Source: Candidatus Peregrinibacteria bacterium
GTDB taxonomy: Bacteria; Patescibacteriota; Gracilibacteria; UBA1369; UBA12463
DNA length: 57,083 bases
Direction of reading: 5' to 3'
Assembly (NCBI GenBank): GCA_026395555.1
Contig: JAPLYO010000017.1
Coordinates: forward strand, 1-57,083
The notes below the pieces were generated by a model. That model was not told where the DNA came from, did not search any database, and saw only the letters and a list, made by a program, of their open reading frames with translations. Of the stretch, positions 28,333 through 38,072 are shown in pieces. The position numbers were made by a program, and so were the translations under genes. Numbering within the stretch: the first letter of the stretch is position 1; each line of letters starts with the position of its first letter.

Positions 28333-28758
28333 ATGAACACTTCCAATGACACTCAAAACACACCGAGCCAGCAAGCAGAAAATGCCGATACGGCAAGATT
28401 TGAAAAAATAATTGATGACTCAATCGGGGAAGGTTTTAGGGACAGGCTCAAAGACTTAAGCCTCAAAGAAGTGAAGGCGATCTGGAAATTAGTGCAGAAA
28501 AGAAAAGCGAACTTATGGTCTCGCGCCACAGCAGATGCCGCAGCTTCGAGAAGATGGCATGCTAAACTACGAAATAGAGTTGGTAGCGTATTGGGAAACA
28601 TACCCGGCCTAGAGCACATTAAAGGTGCACAAAACGAGGCTGCCTATAAAGAAACGAGTGATGTCTTTGGGGATAAATATGTAGGTCTGTACGACACGCT
28701 AGCTTCCCTCGAGGAAGATGCGTTTCAGGAGGCAAGAAGAAAAGGATTGTATTATTGA
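28333..28758 (+). CDS. Small charged alpha-helical protein, unknown
   Basis: I do not recognise this 141-residue protein. A polar N-terminus (about 20 residues, Asn/Thr/Gln-rich) precedes a mostly helical, charged body with a basic patch (WKLVQKRKANLWSRATADAAASRRWHAKLRNR spans residues 51-82). It has no signal peptide, membrane segment or cysteine. It has its own promoter and lies between divergent topA and the aromatic leader. The codon pattern and promoter make it a real gene; a nucleic-acid-binding role is only a guess from the basic patch. Confidence 0.6.
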   Translation: MNTSNDTQNTPSQQAENADTARFEKIIDDSIGEGFRDRLKDLSLKEVKAIWKLVQKRKANLWSRATADAAASRRWHAKLRNRVGSVLGNIPGLEHIKGAQNEAAYKETSDVFGDKYVGLYDTLASLEEDAFQEARRKGLYY

Positions 28759-28789: not shown

Positions 28790-28818
28790 TTGACAAAATG
28801 GCATACAAACGCCAAAAT
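28790..28818 (+). promoter_or_regulatory. Promoter of the aromatic amino acid operon
   Basis: A perfect TTGACA (28790-28795) is followed after 17 bp by CAAAAT (28813-28818), four of six matches. The start would be near 28825, inside or beside the perfect palindrome AAGACGTCTT (28820-28829), a possible operator. The leader peptide starts about 15 nt downstream. Confidence 0.55.
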
Positions 28819-28839
28819 AAAGACGTCTTAAAAACGCAC

Positions 28840-28902
28840 ATGCAACATTCAGTCAACACTTTCGGATATTACTTTTGGAACTTCAACAACGTGAAGGCCT
28901 AG
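28840..28902 (+). CDS. Aromatic-rich attenuator leader peptide
   Basis: ATG 28840 opens a 20-codon ORF ending at TAG 28900-28902. Its centre is FGYYFWNF (28861-28884), so six of 20 residues are Phe, Tyr or Trp, including four in a row. It sits between a promoter and a terminator hairpin and immediately precedes eight genes for aromatic amino acid synthesis. In known attenuators of the pheL/trpL type, ribosome stalling at such codons when charged tRNA is scarce lets an antiterminator form. Here all three aromatic amino acids are represented. There is no Shine-Dalgarno sequence, as elsewhere in this window. The peptide itself need not have a function. Confidence 0.85.
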   Translation: MQHSVNTFGYYFWNFNNVKA

Positions 28903-28908
28903 AGTGTT
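28855..28908 (+). promoter_or_regulatory. Attenuator segments 1 and 2 (pause stem)
   Basis: AACACT (28855-28860), just before the aromatic codons, is perfectly complementary to AGTGTT (28903-28908), just after the stop codon. This stem would sequester the region needed for the antiterminator when no ribosome is present. Confidence 0.5.
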
Positions 28909-28932
28909 ATGCGAAATTTCCACCTCTACGCC
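28896..28932 (+). promoter_or_regulatory. Antiterminator stem
   Basis: GGCCTAGAG (28896-28904, overlapping the stop codon) pairs with CTCTACGCC (28924-28932) in eight of nine positions. The second arm overlaps the 5' arm of the terminator, so the two structures exclude each other. A ribosome finishing the peptide would cover the first arm. Confidence 0.65.
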
Positions 28933-28952
28933 CTCACAAAAGGGCTTTTTTT
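28930..28952 (+). terminator. Attenuator terminator before aroA-aroK
   Basis: GCCCT (28930-28934), loop CACAAA and AGGGC (28941-28945) are followed by seven T (28946-28952). It ends 11 nt before the first structural gene, so any transcript of the operon from the upstream promoter must pass it. Confidence 0.8.
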
Positions 28953-28963
28953 ATGCTTATCTT

Positions 28964-30805
28964 ATGAAACTTATCGTCGAACCAACATTACGAATTGAGG
29001 GGCAAGTTACTCCCCCATCATCCAAATCACACAGCGTGAGAGCGCTTCTATTGGCCACGTTAGCAAACGGCACATCTACGCTAAAAAATATTCTGGATGC
29101 CTCCGACACACGTGCCGCTATCGACGTCTGCAGAAAACTCGGAGCCAAAATTACCTGCATAAAAAATGCAACAGGAGGATTGGACTGCACGGTTGAAAGT
29201 AATGGAACCCCACTTCAAACAGATGAAACCGAACTTTTTTCGGCCAATTCAGGAATAACAACTACATTTACTATTCCTATTTTAGGGCTAAGAAAAGACG
29301 CAAAACAACTGATAACACTCTCATGCGGAGAGCAGATGATGCAGCGACCAATCAATACAATTCTCGATGCCGCTACGAAACTTGGATTAGAAATAAAAAG
29401 TACCAACGGGCACTGTCCGTTAAAAATATCAGGAGCGTTAATCGGTAGTGAAATAGAAATTGACGGAACGAACTCGCAAAACGTATCAGCTCTTCTGCTC
29501 GCCCTTCCTCTCGCTCCAAATACATCCACTATAATAGTAAAAAATCTACAGGAACGCCCATACGTCGAGATGACGCTGCGATGTCTGGATGAACAAAATA
29601 TTGAATACACGCATACTCGCAGTGGAAATATCGATCAGTTCACCATACCTGGGAACCAAATCTACAAGCCATTTGAAAAGACTATCCCGGGTGATTTTTC
29701 ATCAGCATCTTACATTATTGCCGCCTCTGTTTTACTCCCAGGGCATGTGATTATCGATACGATGGATATGACAGATTCACAAGGAGACAAGCGATTAATC
29801 ACGATTTTGCAAGAGATGGGAGCGCACATAAAAATTGAAGGAAAAACAATCGTAATTGACGGTGGACATCCACTCATAGGTCAAGAAATAGACTGTAATG
29901 ATATTCCGGATATGGTGCCAACACTCACGGTTATCGCCACGCAGGCCGAAGGAAAAACAACACTTACAAATGTCGGTCACGCCCGAATCAAAGAAACAGA
30001 CAGATTGAAATCCATGGCCACCGAGCTCAAGAAAATGGGTGCAAATATAGAAGAACACACCACCTCGCTCGTCATATATCGAAGCCGGCTCTTCCGTGCA
30101 TCACTCGACGGATACAATGATCACAGAACCATTATGGCACTCGCCATAGCCAGCCTTCTGCCAACTGACGGAGCAAGCGAGATCACGACAGCAGAGGGAG
30201 TGGACAAGACATTTCCTAACTTCACCACAACTATGAACACTCTCGGCGCAAAAATGCACGCTCTAAGCCCAAAACATCTCATCCTCATCGGCTTCAAAAA
30301 TGCCGGAAAGACGACGATCGGTCAGGATCTGGCCAAAAGACTTGGCCTACCATTCCGAGACCTCGATGAAGAAATCATCGCTCATCACGAAAAAATCTCA
30401 GGCAAAAAACAAAGTTGCAGAGAAATAATGAACGAGTACGGAGAGACATTTTTCAGAGATATGGAACACACCGTCCTAGAAAAAATCACAGCGTCGCCTG
30501 ATATCAGCATCATCGCCCTAGGTGGCGGAACGCCAATAGTAGTAGAAAATCATCCACTACTCACACCCCACCACATCATTCACATTTCCGCCCCAAAGAG
30601 TATCGTGTTCGAGCGGATTATGATTAACGGCAAACCCGCATTCTTCCCTCAAGATCAAGACGCCTTCGTCAGCTTCCAGGAGCTATGGAATTCCAGAGAG
30701 CCAATATTCGAAAAACTTGCTACAATAACGATCCACAATAACGGCTCTATCAAGGAGTCCGTGGAAAACATCCTACGACAACTTGTTACCAAAACCACCA
30801 TATGA
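28964..30805 (+). CDS. aroA-aroK: EPSP synthase-shikimate kinase fusion (AroA-AroK)
   Basis: This 613-residue bifunctional enzyme covers two shikimate steps. Residues 1 to about 430 are 5-enolpyruvylshikimate-3-phosphate synthase, with PPSSKSHSVRALLLA at 17-31, ARIKETDRL and GYNDHRTIMALAIASLL. From about 438 comes shikimate kinase, with Walker A GFKNAGKTT (443-451), DLDEEI, and GGGTP (about 520-524). Shikimate kinase acts just before EPSP synthase, so the fused order is the reverse of the pathway order. The start at 28964 lies 11 nt after the attenuator U-tract; the frame remains open upstream to 28904, but that region is the attenuator. The gene overlaps aroQ by 4 nt. Confidence 0.95.
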   Translation: MKLIVEPTLRIEGQVTPPSSKSHSVRALLLATLANGTSTLKNILDASDTRAAIDVCRKLGAKITCIKNATGGLDCTVESNGTPLQTDETELFSANSGITTTFTIPILGLRKDAKQLITLSCGEQMMQRPINTILDAATKLGLEIKSTNGHCPLKISGALIGSEIEIDGTNSQNVSALLLALPLAPNTSTIIVKNLQERPYVEMTLRCLDEQNIEYTHTRSGNIDQFTIPGNQIYKPFEKTIPGDFSSASYIIAASVLLPGHVIIDTMDMTDSQGDKRLITILQEMGAHIKIEGKTIVIDGGHPLIGQEIDCNDIPDMVPTLTVIATQAEGKTTLTNVGHARIKETDRLKSMATELKKMGANIEEHTTSLVIYRSRLFRASLDGYNDHRTIMALAIASLLPTDGASEITTAEGVDKTFPNFTTTMNTLGAKMHALSPKHLILIGFKNAGKTTIGQDLAKRLGLPFRDLDEEIIAHHEKISGKKQSCREIMNEYGETFFRDMEHTVLEKITASPDISIIALGGGTPIVVENHPLLTPHHIIHISAPKSIVFERIMINGKPAFFPQDQDAFVSFQELWNSREPIFEKLATITIHNNGSIKESVENILRQLVTKTTI

Positions 30806-31248
30806 AAACCATTCTCCTCATCCACGGACCAAATTTAAATCTCTTAGGCAAACGTGATCAGGGTCACTACGGCTCACTCACGCTGAAAAAATTAGAAGAA
30901 ATCGTGAAGGCGGAAGCAAAAGTACTGGGTTATCGAATCCTATCATTTCAATCAAACCACGAAGGAGATCTCATTGATTTTATTCAAAAGAATTCAGAAA
31001 AATCAGATGGAATACTCATCAACCCGGGAGCACTCACGCACTACAGTTACGCGCTCCACGATGCCATAATCGACGCACAGGTGCCGACAGTAGAAGTTCA
31101 TCTCTCGGATATAAACAAACGAGAATCCTGGAGAAAAATATCAGTAACAAAACCGGCCTGCATCGGACAAAAATTCGGCAAGAAAGAAAAAAGTTATCTA
31201 GAGGGACTCACATTACTGCATAAAAAACTGACCACCCAACACTCATGA
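30802..31248 (+). CDS. aroQ: Type II 3-dehydroquinate dehydratase
   Basis: This enzyme converts 3-dehydroquinate to 3-dehydroshikimate. The 148-residue length, GPNLNLLGKRDQGHYGSLTL with the catalytic Arg and Tyr, FQSNHEGDLIDFIQ, INPGALTHYSYALHDA and EVHLSDINKRE are all typical of the type II dodecameric enzyme. It overlaps both neighbours by an ATGA, implying translational coupling in the operon. Confidence 0.97.
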   Translation: MKTILLIHGPNLNLLGKRDQGHYGSLTLKKLEEIVKAEAKVLGYRILSFQSNHEGDLIDFIQKNSEKSDGILINPGALTHYSYALHDAIIDAQVPTVEVHLSDINKRESWRKISVTKPACIGQKFGKKEKSYLEGLTLLHKKLTTQHS

Positions 31249-32291
31249 ACGTTACCATTATTAAACAACTTCCCACGGCGGAAGAAATCATACAGGCATT
31301 CCCTCTTTCCGAGACCGCGCACATGCAAGTGGCACGGGATCAGCAGGAGGTAAAAGATATTATTTCCGGAAAAGATAAGCGCATGATCGTCATCGTTGGC
31401 CCATGCTCGGCATGGCCATTTGACGCGACGCTCGCCTATGCCAAAAAGCTAAAGACACTCGAAGAAAAGCTCAAGCACAAGCTAAAAATCATCATGCGGG
31501 TATACATCCAAAAACCACGAACTAGCAAGGGTTGGACCGGTCCTATCAACCAGCCAAATCCATTCGCAGAACCGGACATTGCAGAGGGCATCCGATACAG
31601 TCGCGACATCATGGTGAGAATTATAGAGATGGGATTACCAATATCGGATGAGTCGGTTTTCACGCACAATGCCAAGGGTTTCAACGAGCTACTCTCATGG
31701 GTGGCAATTGGTGCTCGGAGTACCGAAGATCAAGAACATCGTGTATTTGCATCGTGTATCGACGCTCCGGTTGGCATGAAAAATCCAACCAGCGGCAATC
31801 TGGAGATTGGCGTAAACAGCATCATCGCCGCACAAGCCAAGCACATGGCCGTGTTCCACGGAGCACAAGTACAGACTCACGGAAATCCATATGCACATCT
31901 CGTTTTGCGAGGCGGACTCGATCAACCAAATTATCACGTTGAAGATCTCTACACTGCAAAAAAACAGCTAGAAATAGCCAAAGTAAGCAACCCTGCCGTC
32001 ATCATCGATGCAAGCCATGACAACTGCAAAGTAAAGGGTACAAAAGATCCGGTTCAGCAAATGAACGTCATACGCGAGGTACTTATGACCCTCCGAGAAC
32101 ATCCTGATCTGCAGTCGCTCGTGAAAGGATTCATGGTAGAAAGTTTCATAAAAGGAGGCTGCCAAAAAGTAGAAAAACTCACTCCTGAAACAATAGATCT
32201 TGATGGACTTTCCATCACCGATCCATGTCTCAGCTGGGAACAAACCGAAGAAATTTTAAACACCATCGCCGATGAACACACTATCGATTAA
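31245..32291 (+). CDS. DAHP synthase, type I (AroF/AroG/AroH class)
   Basis: The first step of the shikimate pathway condenses phosphoenolpyruvate and erythrose 4-phosphate. The 348-residue protein carries IVGPCSAWPFDA, MRVYIQKPRTSKGWTG, the GARSTEDQEHR active-site stretch, and DASHDNCKVKG. It belongs to the enterobacterial AroFGH type rather than the short AroF-beta or plant-like class II. In that class, residues near the N-terminus and in the TIM barrel set Phe, Tyr or Trp feedback sensitivity, and I cannot assign which applies. It overlaps aroQ by 4 nt and aroB by 20 nt. Confidence 0.95.
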   Translation: MNVTIIKQLPTAEEIIQAFPLSETAHMQVARDQQEVKDIISGKDKRMIVIVGPCSAWPFDATLAYAKKLKTLEEKLKHKLKIIMRVYIQKPRTSKGWTGPINQPNPFAEPDIAEGIRYSRDIMVRIIEMGLPISDESVFTHNAKGFNELLSWVAIGARSTEDQEHRVFASCIDAPVGMKNPTSGNLEIGVNSIIAAQAKHMAVFHGAQVQTHGNPYAHLVLRGGLDQPNYHVEDLYTAKKQLEIAKVSNPAVIIDASHDNCKVKGTKDPVQQMNVIREVLMTLREHPDLQSLVKGFMVESFIKGGCQKVEKLTPETIDLDGLSITDPCLSWEQTEEILNTIADEHTID

Positions 32292-33399
32292 TGCAAAATT
32301 ACCGCAGCAGAAAGCCATAGAATACCAAGCACACATTGGTACGGGACTGCTGAAGCAAATTCCAAATCTCCTAAAAACACTTACGCCTGTTGCGCGATAC
32401 GTCATTATTACCGACTCGACTATCAAAAATATACTCGGAGTACGGCTTGTAAAAGAACTAAAGAAAGCCAGTCTGGAGGCGGATATAGTCACATTCAGCG
32501 CAGGTGAAAAAAACAAGAATGAGGCAACCCATAGCAAGCTTACGCACGCAATGTTGCAGAAAAAATGCGGAAGAGACACGATGATTCTTGCGCTTGGCGG
32601 CGGTGTCGTTGGTGACATGGCAGGATATGTTGCCGCAACGTACATGAGAGGTATTCCATATGTGCACATTCCAACATCCTTCCTCGCGATGGTAGACAGT
32701 TCGATCGGCGGAAAAGTCGGTGTAGACACAAAATTCGGAAAAAATCTTATTGGCGCTTTTTGGCATCCAGAAGCGGTGATAATCGATATTGATTGCTTGA
32801 AAAAACTTCCACAGGAGCAGCTCATCAATGGTCTCATGGAGTCGATAAAAATCTTTCTTACCTCCGATGCAAAGACGCTCGAAGTAGTAGAAAATAACTG
32901 GAAAAAAATTCTCAAAAAAGACTCTACCCTTCTGCAAAAAATAGTTGCACGATCTATCGAACTGAAAATCGGTGTCGTCACAAGAGATGAGCACGAAGCC
33001 AACGAGCGCATGGTAGTAAACTGGGGACACACGATCGGACACACCATTGAACACCTTAGTAACTTCTCATTTGGTCACGGATACTGCGTAGGATATGGGA
33101 TCCTCGTCGAGAGCAAAATCGCAGAGCTCATGGGAGTACTATCAACAGAAGATTTCGAGAAAGTATGCGAGACAATGCAAGGATTCGGAATCACAAAAAT
33201 AGCGCTCAAAGCAATACTCAAAAAATTCAGTACACAAGCCATTATAAAGCAAACACTTATCGATAAAAAAGCACGAAGTGGAAAGGTAAAATACGTACTA
33301 TTGGAGAAAATTGGAGCGGTAAAAATTACAAAAGAAATGTTCGGACATGAGGTCGACAAAAAAATCGTCACAAAAGCACTCACTTACTTCACAAAATAA
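32272..33399 (+). CDS. aroB: 3-dehydroquinate synthase
   Basis: AroB cyclises DAHP to 3-dehydroquinate using NAD and a divalent metal. The 375-residue protein has [42 protein letters not shown] and the metal ligand region [12 protein letters not shown]. It overlaps the DAHP synthase gene by 20 nt, the deepest overlap in the operon. One change from the common family pattern is ESIKIFL, where AEVIKYG is usual. The otherwise conserved active site suggests a working enzyme. Confidence 0.96.
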
Positions 33400-33403
33400 C
33401 ACT

Positions 33404-34504
33404 ATGTCAGGAAATACATTCGGAAAATTATTCCAAATTACCACATTCGGAGAATCACACGGAGACGGAGTCGGTGTCGTCATCGATGGCTGCCCCGCAG
33501 GACTCGAGATAACTCGTGAAGAAATTCAAAAAGAGCTCGATCGTAGAAGGCCTGGTACAAGCCATTTAACAACACCGCGTCAAGAAAAAGATCAGGTAGA
33601 AATTCTCTCCGGAATATTCGAGGGAAAGACGATGGGTACACCAATCGCACTACTCATTAGAAACCAAGATCAGATTCCAGCAGTCTACGAGCCGATAAAG
33701 GACCTTTACAGACCTGGACATGCAGATGCTACGTATGATGCAAAATATGGCATGCGCGACTGGCGTGGTGGCGGGCGCGCCTCCGCACGGGAGACGATCG
33801 GCCGCGTAGCGGCCGGCGCAATCGCCAAGAAATTACTCGCTCACAGTGGAGTGCAAATCACGGGATATGTGACACAGATTGGAACGGTGAAAATCACGCG
33901 TGTAGATGAAAGTACTATCACGACCAATCTCCTCAACTGCCCTGACGCAACCGTACTCGATGCAATGATTCAGGAGATCGAGACCGCGCGCAAAGACCTC
34001 GATTCCGTTGGCGGAATAGTCGAAATCATCGCGCGCGGGGTCCCCGCAGGCCTCGGCGAACCCGTTTTCGACAAACTCTCCGCCGATCTCGCCCATGGCA
34101 TCATGAGCATCCCGGCCGTAAAAGGTTTCGAAATTGGCGACGGCTTCGCCTCATCATCACGCCATGGCAGCGAAAATAACGACGAGTGGACACTCAAAAC
34201 ATTACACGGAAACAATGGCAATAACACTCACATCGGCACGACCACTAATCACGCCGGCGGCATCATTGGAGGCATCAGTAACGGTGAAGATATCATCTTA
34301 CGTTTCGCCCTCAAGCCGACCTCAAGCATAGCGAAAAAACAGCAAACCGTAGACCGAAATGGCACATCAGCCGAAATCGAAGTACACGGCCGCCACGACC
34401 CATGCGTTGCCCCACGTGCCGTTCCAATCGGTGAGGCCATGGTAGCCCTCGTCCTCGCCGACCACTACCTTAGGAACAAAATAAGCCGAATAGAAAACAT
34501 ATAA
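33404..34504 (+). CDS. aroC: Chorismate synthase
   Basis: AroC converts EPSP to chorismate with reduced FMN. From ATG 33404 the product is 366 residues and begins [20 protein letters not shown], the canonical N-terminus. [38 protein letters not shown] and [13 protein letters not shown] are all present. The frame is open upstream into aroB, but the canonical start at 33404 is 4 nt after the aroB stop. It completes the chorismate branch apart from shikimate dehydrogenase (aroE), which is not in this window. Confidence 0.97.
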
Positions 34505-34518
34505 GATATATACACTTC

Positions 34519-35109
34519 ATGAAAAAGTCTTCATCTCCAGCAACTCTCGCCACTCGCATCTCCGTCTCAGGAGCTCCCGGATCTTTCTCGGAAGAGGCCG
34601 CACTCCTCTACGCACAACGTCATGCCATCACAAATCCGAAAATAATCTTTTCTATCGATATGGAGGGAGTTCTCACATCACTCGACAAAAAACAATCCGA
34701 CATCGGAATTTTTCCAGTAGTGAACTCCCGCGGTGGTCTCGTACAAACCGCATTCAAGGCCATGGGAAAGCATATTTTCACCTATACAGACGAGCTCTGG
34801 CTCGAGGTATACCAGTGTCTCATGACGCAACCTGGCATCACTAAAAAGCAGATCAAGAAAATCGCCAGCCACCCGCAAGCCCTATCGCAGTGCGAACGAT
34901 ACATCAGAAAAGAATTTCCAAATGCTAAACTTATCGAATGGGAAGATACCGCGAAAGCCGCGAAAGACCTCAGTGAAGGCAAGCTCTCAAAAGATACAGC
35001 CGTCATTGCACCCGCCCGATCCGCACAGATTTACAACCTCAAGCTCATAGAAAAAGGAATTCAAGACAATCATCCCAACCTCACAACCTTTATCGTCGTC
35101 ACAAAATAA
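34519..35109 (+). CDS. Prephenate dehydratase domain protein lacking an ACT domain
   Basis: This 196-residue protein corresponds to the catalytic domain of prephenate dehydratase, which makes phenylpyruvate. It has GAPGSFSEEAALLYAQ at the N-terminus, IGIFPVVNSRGGLV where the family has 'xxPxENSxxGxV', ASHPQALSQCERYI, and a C-terminal NLTTFIVV in place of the usual 'NxTRF'. The catalytic Thr is kept, but the following Arg is Thr. The protein ends there, so the regulatory ACT domain that normally gives Phe feedback is missing. The operon context (tyrA downstream) supports the role, though the substituted motifs mean activity should be tested. A gap of 14 nt separates it from aroC. Confidence 0.8.
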   Translation: MKKSSSPATLATRISVSGAPGSFSEEAALLYAQRHAITNPKIIFSIDMEGVLTSLDKKQSDIGIFPVVNSRGGLVQTAFKAMGKHIFTYTDELWLEVYQCLMTQPGITKKQIKKIASHPQALSQCERYIRKEFPNAKLIEWEDTAKAAKDLSEGKLSKDTAVIAPARSAQIYNLKLIEKGIQDNHPNLTTFIVVTK

Positions 35110-35110
35110 C

Positions 35111-36097
35111 ATGAACAACAAGCCAACATTCGGCATCATCGGATTCGGACGTTTCGGAAAATTATGGGCACGCGCTATAGCGCCATTTGGCGAGGTGAAA
35201 ATTTTCGACAAGAAAAATAAGAAAAATACACTCGTCGATACGATTAATTGCGACCTCCTTTTTCTACTCGTCCCAATATCAGAAATAGAATCAATCTGCA
35301 AAAAAATCGCACCTCACCTCAAACCAAATACCATCATTATCGACGCTTGTTCCGTCAAAACACACCCGGTTAAAATGATGAAAAAATGGCTTCCAGCCAA
35401 ACAGCCAATAATCGCCACACATCCCCTTTTTGGCCCGGACTCTATTCAAAAAAATGGCATAGCCAAGCAAAAAATCGCCATCAGTACTATTCGCACATCG
35501 AGCAAAGAATTAGAAAAATTTGAAAATCTTCTCAAGAAACTTCATCTGGAAATTATCAAAACGACACCTCGAGAACACGACAAGCAGATGGCAAGATCAC
35601 AAGCTCTCGTGCATCTTCTCGGGCGCGCCCTTGCGAAACTCCACCTCAAACCACAAGAGATTTCTACGCCGGACTACCAAGCATTAGTTCAAATGAACAA
35701 TATGGTGAATAATGACACGTGGGAGCTCTTTTATGACATGCAGAGAAAGAATCCATACGCAAAAAACATACGAAAAGCGCTCATACGTGCGCTACAGCAG
35801 TTCGAAGACACCATTCAAGAAGGACCAACAAAGTTGAAACCGACTATCGCCTCCCTTCGTAGAAAAATAGACACCCTGGACAAAGAAATAATCGAAACAA
35901 TCAGCAAAAGATTAGCAATAGTGGAGGAAATAGGAGCCCTCAAGAAACAGCAGCAATTAAAGATAAAAGACTCTACGCGCGAAAACAAACTTCACAATCT
36001 TCACGAAATTCTGGCAAAAAAGAGAAACATTGACCCAAAAACAATTCACCATATATTCACCCTCCTCATGAAGGAGTCACGACGCGCACAACTATGA
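35111..36097 (+). CDS. tyrA: Prephenate dehydrogenase-chorismate mutase fusion
   Basis: Residues 1 to about 240 form a prephenate dehydrogenase with Rossmann motif GIIGFGRFGKLWA, ATHPLFGPDS and REHDKQMARSQALVHLLGRAL. Residues about 245-328 are an AroQ-type chorismate mutase (LRRKIDTLDKEIIETISKRL, KDSTRENKL, LLMKESRRAQ). In enterobacterial TyrA the mutase is N-terminal, so the domain order is reversed here. The protein would channel chorismate through prephenate to 4-hydroxyphenylpyruvate and also supply prephenate to the dehydratase encoded upstream. It overlaps the aminotransferase by 4 nt. Confidence 0.92.
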   Translation: MNNKPTFGIIGFGRFGKLWARAIAPFGEVKIFDKKNKKNTLVDTINCDLLFLLVPISEIESICKKIAPHLKPNTIIIDACSVKTHPVKMMKKWLPAKQPIIATHPLFGPDSIQKNGIAKQKIAISTIRTSSKELEKFENLLKKLHLEIIKTTPREHDKQMARSQALVHLLGRALAKLHLKPQEISTPDYQALVQMNNMVNNDTWELFYDMQRKNPYAKNIRKALIRALQQFEDTIQEGPTKLKPTIASLRRKIDTLDKEIIETISKRLAIVEEIGALKKQQQLKIKDSTRENKLHNLHEILAKKRNIDPKTIHHIFTLLMKESRRAQL

Positions 36098-37263
36098 AAT
36101 TCTCCACAAAAGTACAAATTCCGCAGTCCGCAACAGTCACTATCAACTCAATAGCACAGCAAAAAAAGCTCGCAGGAGAGCGCATATTCAATCTCAGCGC
36201 CGGCGAACCCATGATGAATACCGCCCGATACCTGGAAAAGGCCGTGCAAGACGCGATGCAATCGGGCAAAACGCTCTACCCGCCCGTCGCAGGACTTCCC
36301 GAACTCAGAAAAAAAGCATCTGACTGGATGAATACGAATTACCAAACAAGCTACTCCCCTCAAAATACACTTATCACCTGTGGTGGAAAATTTGGCATTT
36401 ACCTGTCACTTCAAGCACTTCTCAACGACGAAGATGAGGTCATAATTATCGCCCCATACTGGGTATCATACCCGTCAATGGTCAGTCTCTTCGGTGGAAA
36501 ACCAATGATAGTCACCACAAAAGAACAAGATCAGTGGAAGGTAAGGCCTGATGATATTCGAAATATCTGCACAGAGAAAACAAAGATGCTCATTCTTAAT
36601 AACGCCTCAAATCCAACAGGCGTGCTCTATACAAAAGATGAATTAATGTTAATACTAGAAGTTGCGAAAGAAAAAAACCTCATCGTGCTCTCCGACGAGG
36701 TTTACAGCGGTCTCACGTATGACGATAAAACATACACATCCTGCGCATCGATCGAAAAGAACAGCGACAACCTCATCGTCATTCAAAGTTGCTCCAAAAA
36801 CTTCGGCATGACCGGCTGGCGCGTGGGATTTGTATTCGCATCAGAAAATTTCATAAAAATGCTCACAAAAATCCAGGGCCAAAGCATCACAGGAACGAGC
36901 ATTATAAGCCAATATGCAGCCATAGCCGCACTAGAGCAATCGGAAATAATTACCCATGAAATTCATAAAGAAATGGAGTCACGTCGCGACTTTTTTTCCT
37001 CTACATTCAACAAAGTATTCCATACAAATATCCCCCAACCGCAGTCATCGCTTTATCACTTCATTCCTCTCTCCGCATTCGGCATTCAAAATTCCGATGA
37101 CATAACATTTTGTGAACAAGTATTAACAAACGGGAATGTAGCACTTGTGCCAGGATCGGCATTTGGCTGCGCAGGATACATAAGAACTTCTTTTGGTGCA
37201 AATAAAAATGAATTAAAAGAAAGTATTGAAGCACTCGCCTCTCATCTCCAGTTTTCAGCTTAG
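36094..37263 (+). CDS. Class I PLP aminotransferase (aspartate/aromatic type)
   Basis: This 389-residue fold type I aminotransferase has the PLP-binding lysine in SCSKNFGMTGWRVGF. It also has ILNNASNPTGVLY, LSDEVYSGLTYDD and the C-terminal RTSFGA arginine. As last gene of the operon, it most likely transfers the amino group to phenylpyruvate and 4-hydroxyphenylpyruvate, finishing Phe and Tyr. It may also act on oxaloacetate like AspC. Prephenate amination to arogenate is an alternative that sequence alone cannot exclude. Confidence 0.9.
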   Translation: MKFSTKVQIPQSATVTINSIAQQKKLAGERIFNLSAGEPMMNTARYLEKAVQDAMQSGKTLYPPVAGLPELRKKASDWMNTNYQTSYSPQNTLITCGGKFGIYLSLQALLNDEDEVIIIAPYWVSYPSMVSLFGGKPMIVTTKEQDQWKVRPDDIRNICTEKTKMLILNNASNPTGVLYTKDELMLILEVAKEKNLIVLSDEVYSGLTYDDKTYTSCASIEKNSDNLIVIQSCSKNFGMTGWRVGFVFASENFIKMLTKIQGQSITGTSIISQYAAIAALEQSEIITHEIHKEMESRRDFFSSTFNKVFHTNIPQPQSSLYHFIPLSAFGIQNSDDITFCEQVLTNGNVALVPGSAFGCAGYIRTSFGANKNELKESIEALASHLQFSA

Positions 37264-37787: not shown

Positions 37788-38072
37788 GTTACAGATGTTC
37801 ATGAAGTGATATCACCTGATATCCTTTGGGGCGGTTGGCGGTGTATCTTCTATCCTACTTTTAAAAAGCTATCGTACGATATACAAACCCATAGCAAGTT
37901 GATACTAAAATGCTATCAAATTGATATCCTTTCAAAAGTGACCTATATGATAACCTCCTAAGTGCGTCAAAGAATATCACCTGATATACATCTGCCTGCT
38001 GCAAGGTCATTACAAAAAAACGCATCATTTTCCCTATGACATCAAAGCCAAAACGCGCTACAATGAACCAGC
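37788..38072. promoter_or_regulatory. Non-coding palindrome array upstream of pheS
   Basis: No gene is seen in this interval. It carries four short inverted repeats built from TATCA/TGATA half-sites: GATATCA-CC-TGATATC (37808-37823), TATCGTACGATA (37870-37881), TATCAA-A-TTGATA (37914-37926) and ATATCA-CC-TGATAT (37974-37987). Further single half-sites lie at 37899-37904 and 37948-37952. Centres are about 60, 45 and 60 bp apart. The array lies between the HU terminator and the pheS promoter and looks like a multi-operator or protein-loading site. Confidence 0.6.
38036..38064 (+). promoter_or_regulatory. pheS promoter, leaderless
   Basis: ATGACA (38036-38041), a 17-bp spacer and TACAAT (38059-38064) lie 8 nt before ATG 38073. 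Confidence 0.7.

Follow-up and report, generated by a model that had tools for sequence, protein, structure and literature searches.

A predicted leader-peptide attenuator with Phe, Tyr and Trp codons upstream of an aromatic amino acid operon in Peregrinibacteria, and similar leaders in other Patescibacteria

An aromatic leader peptide precedes an eight-gene aromatic operon

Based on its leader peptide, its alternative hairpins and their recurrence in related genomes, an eight-gene aromatic amino acid operon of a Candidatus Peregrinibacteria bacterium is very probably controlled by a ribosome-mediated transcription attenuator. The operon lies on a contig stretch of 57,083 nucleotides (the window, numbered from its first letter) in an assembly of 1.2 Mb and 32 contigs. 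Its genes, all on the forward strand, encode an aroA-aroK fusion (EPSP synthase and shikimate kinase; 28964-30805), a type II 3-dehydroquinate dehydratase (aroQ; 30802-31248), an AroFGH-type DAHP synthase (31245-32291), 3-dehydroquinate synthase (aroB; 32272-33399), chorismate synthase (aroC; 33347-34504), prephenate dehydratase for the Phe branch (34519-35109), prephenate dehydrogenase with a C-terminal chorismate mutase for the Tyr branch (35111-36097) and a class I/II aminotransferase (36094-37263). Judged from its position, the aminotransferase likely completes Phe and Tyr synthesis. The operon encodes the entire common pathway together with the Phe and Tyr branches. Among named relatives, those closest to the AroAK protein are from metagenome assemblies of Candidatus Peribacteria and Peregrinibacteria. 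The C-terminal position of the chorismate mutase is the reverse of the domain order in E. coli TyrA. Beyond the operon, between an HU-like gene and the gene that follows it, an exact repeat (ATATCACCTGATAT; 37809-37822 and 37974-37987) occurs with further GATATC half sites and looks like a putative operator cluster.

Upstream of aroA we identified a leader ORF of 20 codons (MQHSVNTFGYYFWNFNNVKA; 28840-28902, forward strand) that starts with ATG at 28840 and ends with a TAG stop codon. It contains Phe codons at 28861, 28873 and 28882, Tyr codons at 28867 and 28870 and a Trp codon at 28876. Under uniform codon usage, the probability of at least six aromatic codons among eight is about 7e-6 per 8-codon frame. 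Like the trpL and pheL leaders, this is a short ORF with clustered codons for end products. The aromatic leader, the terminator and the eight downstream genes described in an earlier sequence-only reading of this DNA are all present; the distance from the leader stop to the aroA ATG (28964), given there as 62 nt, is 61 nt.

Alternative pairings in the leader RNA

An intrinsic terminator (segments 3 and 4; GCCCTCACAAAAGGGC followed by TTTTTTT; 28930-28952, forward strand) lies between the leader and the first gene. Its stem, GCCCT(N6)AGGGC at 28930-28945, has only 5 bp and is followed by seven T (28946-28952), as had been described from the sequence. Formation of this terminator and of an antiterminator would be mutually exclusive. 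The first antiterminator arm (segment 2; GTGAAGGCCTAGAG; 28891-28904) spans the leader stop codon, so that a ribosome at the stop would be expected to mask it, and the second arm (segment 3; CTCTACGCCCTCAC; 28924-28937) shares its last 8 nt with the terminator stem and loop; both overlaps had been recognized in the sequence-only reading. The antiterminator had been given there as 8 of 9 pairs; the pairing is present but longer, with 12 pairs and two mismatches in 14 columns. Scored against shuffled sequences it reaches p=0.010 in the window and p=0.003 in each of two congener loci.

The minimum free energy (MFE) structure of 28840-28952 contains a long interrupted hairpin (28860-28916, forward strand) that encloses the first antiterminator arm as well as every control codon, and that would act as the 1:2 hairpin, or anti-antiterminator. 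The shorter AACACT/AGTGTT pairing previously assigned to segments 1 and 2 is present, but it is this longer hairpin that is found in the MFE structure. Compared with dinucleotide shuffles, the leader folds more stably by 3.2 SD (z -3.2). When the whole leader is folded, the 1:2 hairpin and the terminator are favoured; when folding starts at 28886, excluding segment 1 and the control codons, the antiterminator is favoured.

In the proposed mechanism, RNA polymerase would start near 28825, and translation of the 20-codon leader would be initiated independently of a Shine-Dalgarno sequence. A shortage of charged Phe-, Tyr- or Trp-tRNA would stall the translating ribosome on the codons at 28861-28884, where it would open the 1:2 hairpin and leave segment 2 wholly or mostly free. 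Segment 2 could then pair with segment 3, the terminator would be blocked and the eight genes would be transcribed. With charged tRNAs, the ribosome would reach the stop codon at 28900 and cover segment 2, and the terminator would form. In the absence of leader translation, formation of the 1:2 hairpin would likewise leave segment 3 free to terminate, giving a low basal state. A ribosome footprint of about 12 nt downstream of the A site is established for E. coli and is assumed here for the window organism. With the A site at the Trp codon (28876), such a footprint would stop just short of segment 2; with the A site at the last Phe codon, most of segment 2 would still be free, and at the stop it would be covered. 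This predicted stall and stop geometry is that of classical attenuation, and the operon would respond to aromatic starvation.

Promoter and initiation without Shine-Dalgarno sequences

A sigma-70-like promoter (28790-28818, forward strand) with TTGACA at 28790-28795, a 17-nt spacer and CAAAAT at 28813-28818 precedes the leader, and transcription is predicted to start at about 28825. The promoter proposed from the sequence is thus present with 10 of 12 consensus matches, but its -10 box is weak and the single-site pattern scan is not above chance (1 site found versus 1.1 expected in the region). Among the 59 candidate leaders of the wider set described below, TTGAC occurs at most 90 nt upstream in 43, versus 4.7 expected, and the -10-like hexamer, where detected, mostly ends 7-26 nt before the leader ATG. 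These statistics support a promoter upstream of the leader as a probable feature of the group. Because the hexamer lies so close to the ATG, many of the leaders are probably translated from leaderless or near-leaderless RNA.

Translation without Shine-Dalgarno sequences, also suggested earlier, is borne out. Shine-Dalgarno-like motifs were found before none of 40 window genes, and across the order their frequency before genes (28 of 753) is that of the background (27 of 753 in a control region). The 16S rRNA 3' end in the genus of the window is GGATGGAATACCTCTTTTACAGAG, where the canonical end is GGATCACCTCCTTT (L297:2913-2970, L296:2430-2487, L305:1152-1205). Some 20 genomes of the order (L277-L301) have an anti-Shine-Dalgarno that is directly followed by its own complement (CTCC..GGAG, CTCT..AGAG, TTCCC..GGGAA), forming a covarying hairpin over the anti-Shine-Dalgarno, and CCTCC is lost in two genomes. 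Such a predicted hairpin fits the missing Shine-Dalgarno signals in the order.

Conservation within the genus

According to the sequence-only reading, relatives without the leader or hairpins would refute an attenuator, and conserved aromatic codons with compensatory changes would support one. Applied to related genomes, this test favoured an attenuator. Two congeners keep the leader before aroAK. In one (G003, locus L003) the leader peptide is identical to that of the window. In the other (G002, locus L004) the leader MNNIAKAQNWFYFYNFSHVKA precedes the orthologous aroAK and, although its residues differ, still has three Phe, two Tyr and one Trp. The antiterminator forms 12 of 14 pairs in L003 and 14 of 14 in L004, where the terminator stem is also preserved through a paired change (GCCTTC/GAAGGC). 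A 1:2 hairpin that would block the antiterminator is present in the window and in L003; it is weaker in L004, where the stem differs (an alternative 7-bp version, GCACAG/CUGUGUU) and the full-length MFE structure is the antiterminator. Pair-by-pair covariation from the three orthologous sequences is by itself weak and uninformative. Sequence upstream of the leader is unrelated in the congeners, and the leader and hairpins are retained.

The two other genomes of the genus (G001 and G004; L100 and L101) have a different aromatic locus with another type of DAHP synthase and a distant aroA, and the anatomy-based scan described below identified no aromatic leader at these loci. This difference suggests that the operon may have been replaced within the genus.

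Aromatic leaders across the phylum

A covariance model built from the three genus sequences and searched against 89 genomes of the order matched only those three, and weaker matches in the order looked like AT-rich chance hits. Since the model reached only the genus, we used an anatomy-based scan for the wider set, covering stretches around DAHP synthase and aroA genes at 104 loci, taken from the order and from other classes of the phylum. Leaders were required to start with ATG and to have at least six aromatic residues in 10 codons. They occur before 48 of 87 aromatic-gene heads but before 3 of the 351 other genes that these stretches contain, a comparison that is not blind to the choice of loci and draws its control genes from the same contigs. 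Further leaders in the order and in other classes include MNTLNKIFGFWFYFYSPIAVRTF, MQKVSKQLVGQFWAYFYFTLKA, MVKSTQNFWFFYFTEAQLRLEILS and MQNSSHNFYFYFYFTNPGGARG.

For the 44 leaders with a detectable terminator, pairing between the region of the leader stop and the 5' arm of the terminator was scored against dinucleotide shuffles of each sequence. It is significant in 36 of 44 at p<0.05 and in 28 at p<0.01, and in 32 leaders the stop codon overlaps with the antiterminator arm. By the same procedure, only 5 of 91 terminators after ordinary genes reach p<0.05. About 15 of the 59 candidate leaders lack a terminator by the scan, and several of these show a longer-loop terminator by eye. Leader sequence is not conserved between families; aromatic codon content is. 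Because the leaders cannot be aligned across families and the pairing is nonetheless present, it has persisted through base changes. The arrangement is thus real and far beyond chance by these comparative tests, but it is one of dozens and not unique to this operon.

Control codons and pathway content

Trp operons of the order have Trp-only leaders (WW or WWW) with terminators before a trpE-like gene, for example MMTRNNKNWWWINTSEQLRR, MYKRQIIMNWWWEDHMIRRF and MGKRINQNNVWWWTRLYMQTRR. Such leaders were located at L259:6593, L262:6058, L263:6810, L264:2132 and L273:6338 (listed without a strand mark) and, on the minus strand, at L269:549, L102:3364 and L239:5301. Their position before trp operons indicates that codon identity follows the pathway. 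Leaders before DAHP synthase in the order contain a Trp codon in 20 of 21 genomes with trpC versus 9 of 20 without (Fisher p=0.0005; within-family permutation p=0.013). For instance, G066, which has trpC, encodes the leader KPLQWLVDFYFYF (QWLVDFYFYF), whereas G067, which lacks it, encodes NPFQFMADFYFYF (QFMADFYFYF). In the held-out classes the direction is the same but not significant (a Trp codon in 3 of 4 genomes with trpC versus 6 of 11 without). A prediction fixed before the held-out search, that every leader with a Trp codon belongs to a trp prototroph, failed: six of the nine clear Trp-leader cases lack trpC (G225, a marginal partial hit, is excluded from the nine). Its other half, no trpC where there is no Trp codon, held in 5 of 6.

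The genus of the window is an exception to this trend, keeping the Trp codon with trpC missing from all five genomes. Control by all three aromatic amino acids, as first proposed, therefore describes the leader codons but not the products of the operon. Only the window genome (G000) encodes the alpha subunit of tryptophan synthase (trpA), which is absent from the four congeners; this gene lies at a contig end (L040:4373-5152, contig C22). A chorismate-binding gene of the genus was considered as trpE and rejected, as it looks like pabB and adjoins a pabC-like gene.

With no de novo route to Trp in the genus, the attenuator may in practice sense Phe and Tyr, the single Trp codon being a relic or by-product of the aromatic run. 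We give this reading slightly less than an even chance. The absence of trpC, the confinement of trpA to one contig end, an operon with Phe and Tyr branches only and the tendency of the Trp codon elsewhere in the order to disappear where trpC is lost, as in G066 and G067, all point towards it. However, the Trp codon is retained in both congener leaders, a Trp shortage would stall a ribosome at that codon whatever the genome encodes, and the window genome does have the tryptophan synthase alpha gene.

Terminator and antiterminator pairs also control amino acid genes in T-box, riboswitch and TRAP-like leaders, and this general likeness favours a ligand-, tRNA- or protein-bound RNA beside which the ORF would be incidental. 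We consider such control very improbable. A search of the window and the two congener loci with 4227 Rfam models, including those for Phe_leader, Trp_leader and the T-box, gave no match at gathering score, and around the leader there was a single match at chance level. Moreover, what is conserved across families is aromatic codon content and not sequence, and Trp-only codons before trp operons fit a codon reading and not a shared ligand. Intrinsic terminators are common between genes and a same-strand ORF (28333-28758) ends about 80 nt before the leader, but that the terminator merely ends this gene or blocks readthrough, with the aromatic ORF a chance frame, is the least probable reading of all and was rejected, since an excess of aromatic leaders is seen before aromatic genes only (3 of 351 control genes), ordinary terminators seldom pair with a stop region (5 of 91) and the congeners keep leader and hairpins below unrelated upstream sequence.

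Relation to known attenuators

Attenuation by a leader peptide thus remains the preferred reading, and its mechanism type, classical ribosome-mediated attenuation, is already known from other bacteria. The enterobacterial pheL-pheA, pheST and trpL-trp leaders combine control codons with alternative 1:2, 2:3 and 3:4 hairpins and a stop codon placed so that the terminating ribosome masks segment 2. The window leader shares this hairpin set and stop placement. In contrast, each enterobacterial leader responds to one amino acid and regulates a branch, whereas the window leader has three types of aromatic codon and precedes the whole common pathway, and it has no match to the Rfam families (Phe_leader, Trp_leader) that represent them. 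The ilvGMEDA/ilvB and thr leaders likewise combine, in a single leader, codons for more than one end product of a common pathway; they resemble the window leader in this respect but have branched-chain or Thr/Ile codons and occur in other phyla. Leaders for branched-chain amino acids are covered in PMC13236596.

Among the closest described systems is AroR of Corynebacterium glutamicum, a leader peptide with Phe-Tyr-Phe upstream of the aroF (DAHP synthase) operon, where Phe limitation leads to ribosome stalling and more transcription and Tyr availability has no effect (PMC11802643, citing Neshat et al. 2014). No Trp codon is reported there for AroR, which belongs to another phylum, and the F/Y/W runs of the Patescibacteria leaders are longer, with predicted 5' UTRs that are very short or absent. 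Trp operons of Actinobacteria have classical attenuators with repeated UGG codons, an antiterminator and a terminator, like the WW and WWW leaders of the order, and no attenuators of Phe or Tyr operons were found in that study (PMC1262725). In mycobacteria, polycysteine attenuators have a leader peptide translated from a leaderless transcript (Canestrari et al. 2020, as cited in PMC13236596), as is probably the case for many leaders of the Patescibacteria set; they have cysteine codons and are described there as translation attenuation, whereas the Patescibacteria set has intrinsic terminators.

A literature search without most subscription journals found no paper on attenuation or leader peptides in Patescibacteria or CPR, in agreement with the sequence-only reading, which knew of no described example in candidate-phyla bacteria. 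What appears to be new is the phylum, the predicted three-residue control of the whole aromatic pathway, the probable near-leaderless starts and the recurrence with apparently retuned codons. We lean towards a wider reading, in which Patescibacteria with aromatic pathways share a phylum-wide and so far unreported set of leaderless or near-leaderless attenuators that lack Shine-Dalgarno sequences, with control codons retuned to the end products of each genome: Phe, Tyr and Trp before DAHP synthase, Trp only before trpE, and a Trp codon that tends to vanish with the trp pathway.

Implications for Patescibacteria

The usual picture of Patescibacteria is one of streamlined auxotrophs. The paper on the first complete Peribacteria genomes reported that most amino acid synthesis is absent from them and says nothing of regulation (PMC4736985). 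Classical attenuation in this phylum, if true, would imply tight coupling of transcription and translation in tiny uncultured cells, which would monitor tRNA charging operon by operon. Attenuation with ribosome loading at the RNA 5' end could be tested on these leaders as a model, since they are free of Shine-Dalgarno sequences and many are seemingly leaderless. The set could also serve as an RNA or small-ORF family for annotation. Finally, leader codons would report what a cell needs and what it makes, so that its nutrient supply could be read from genome sequence.
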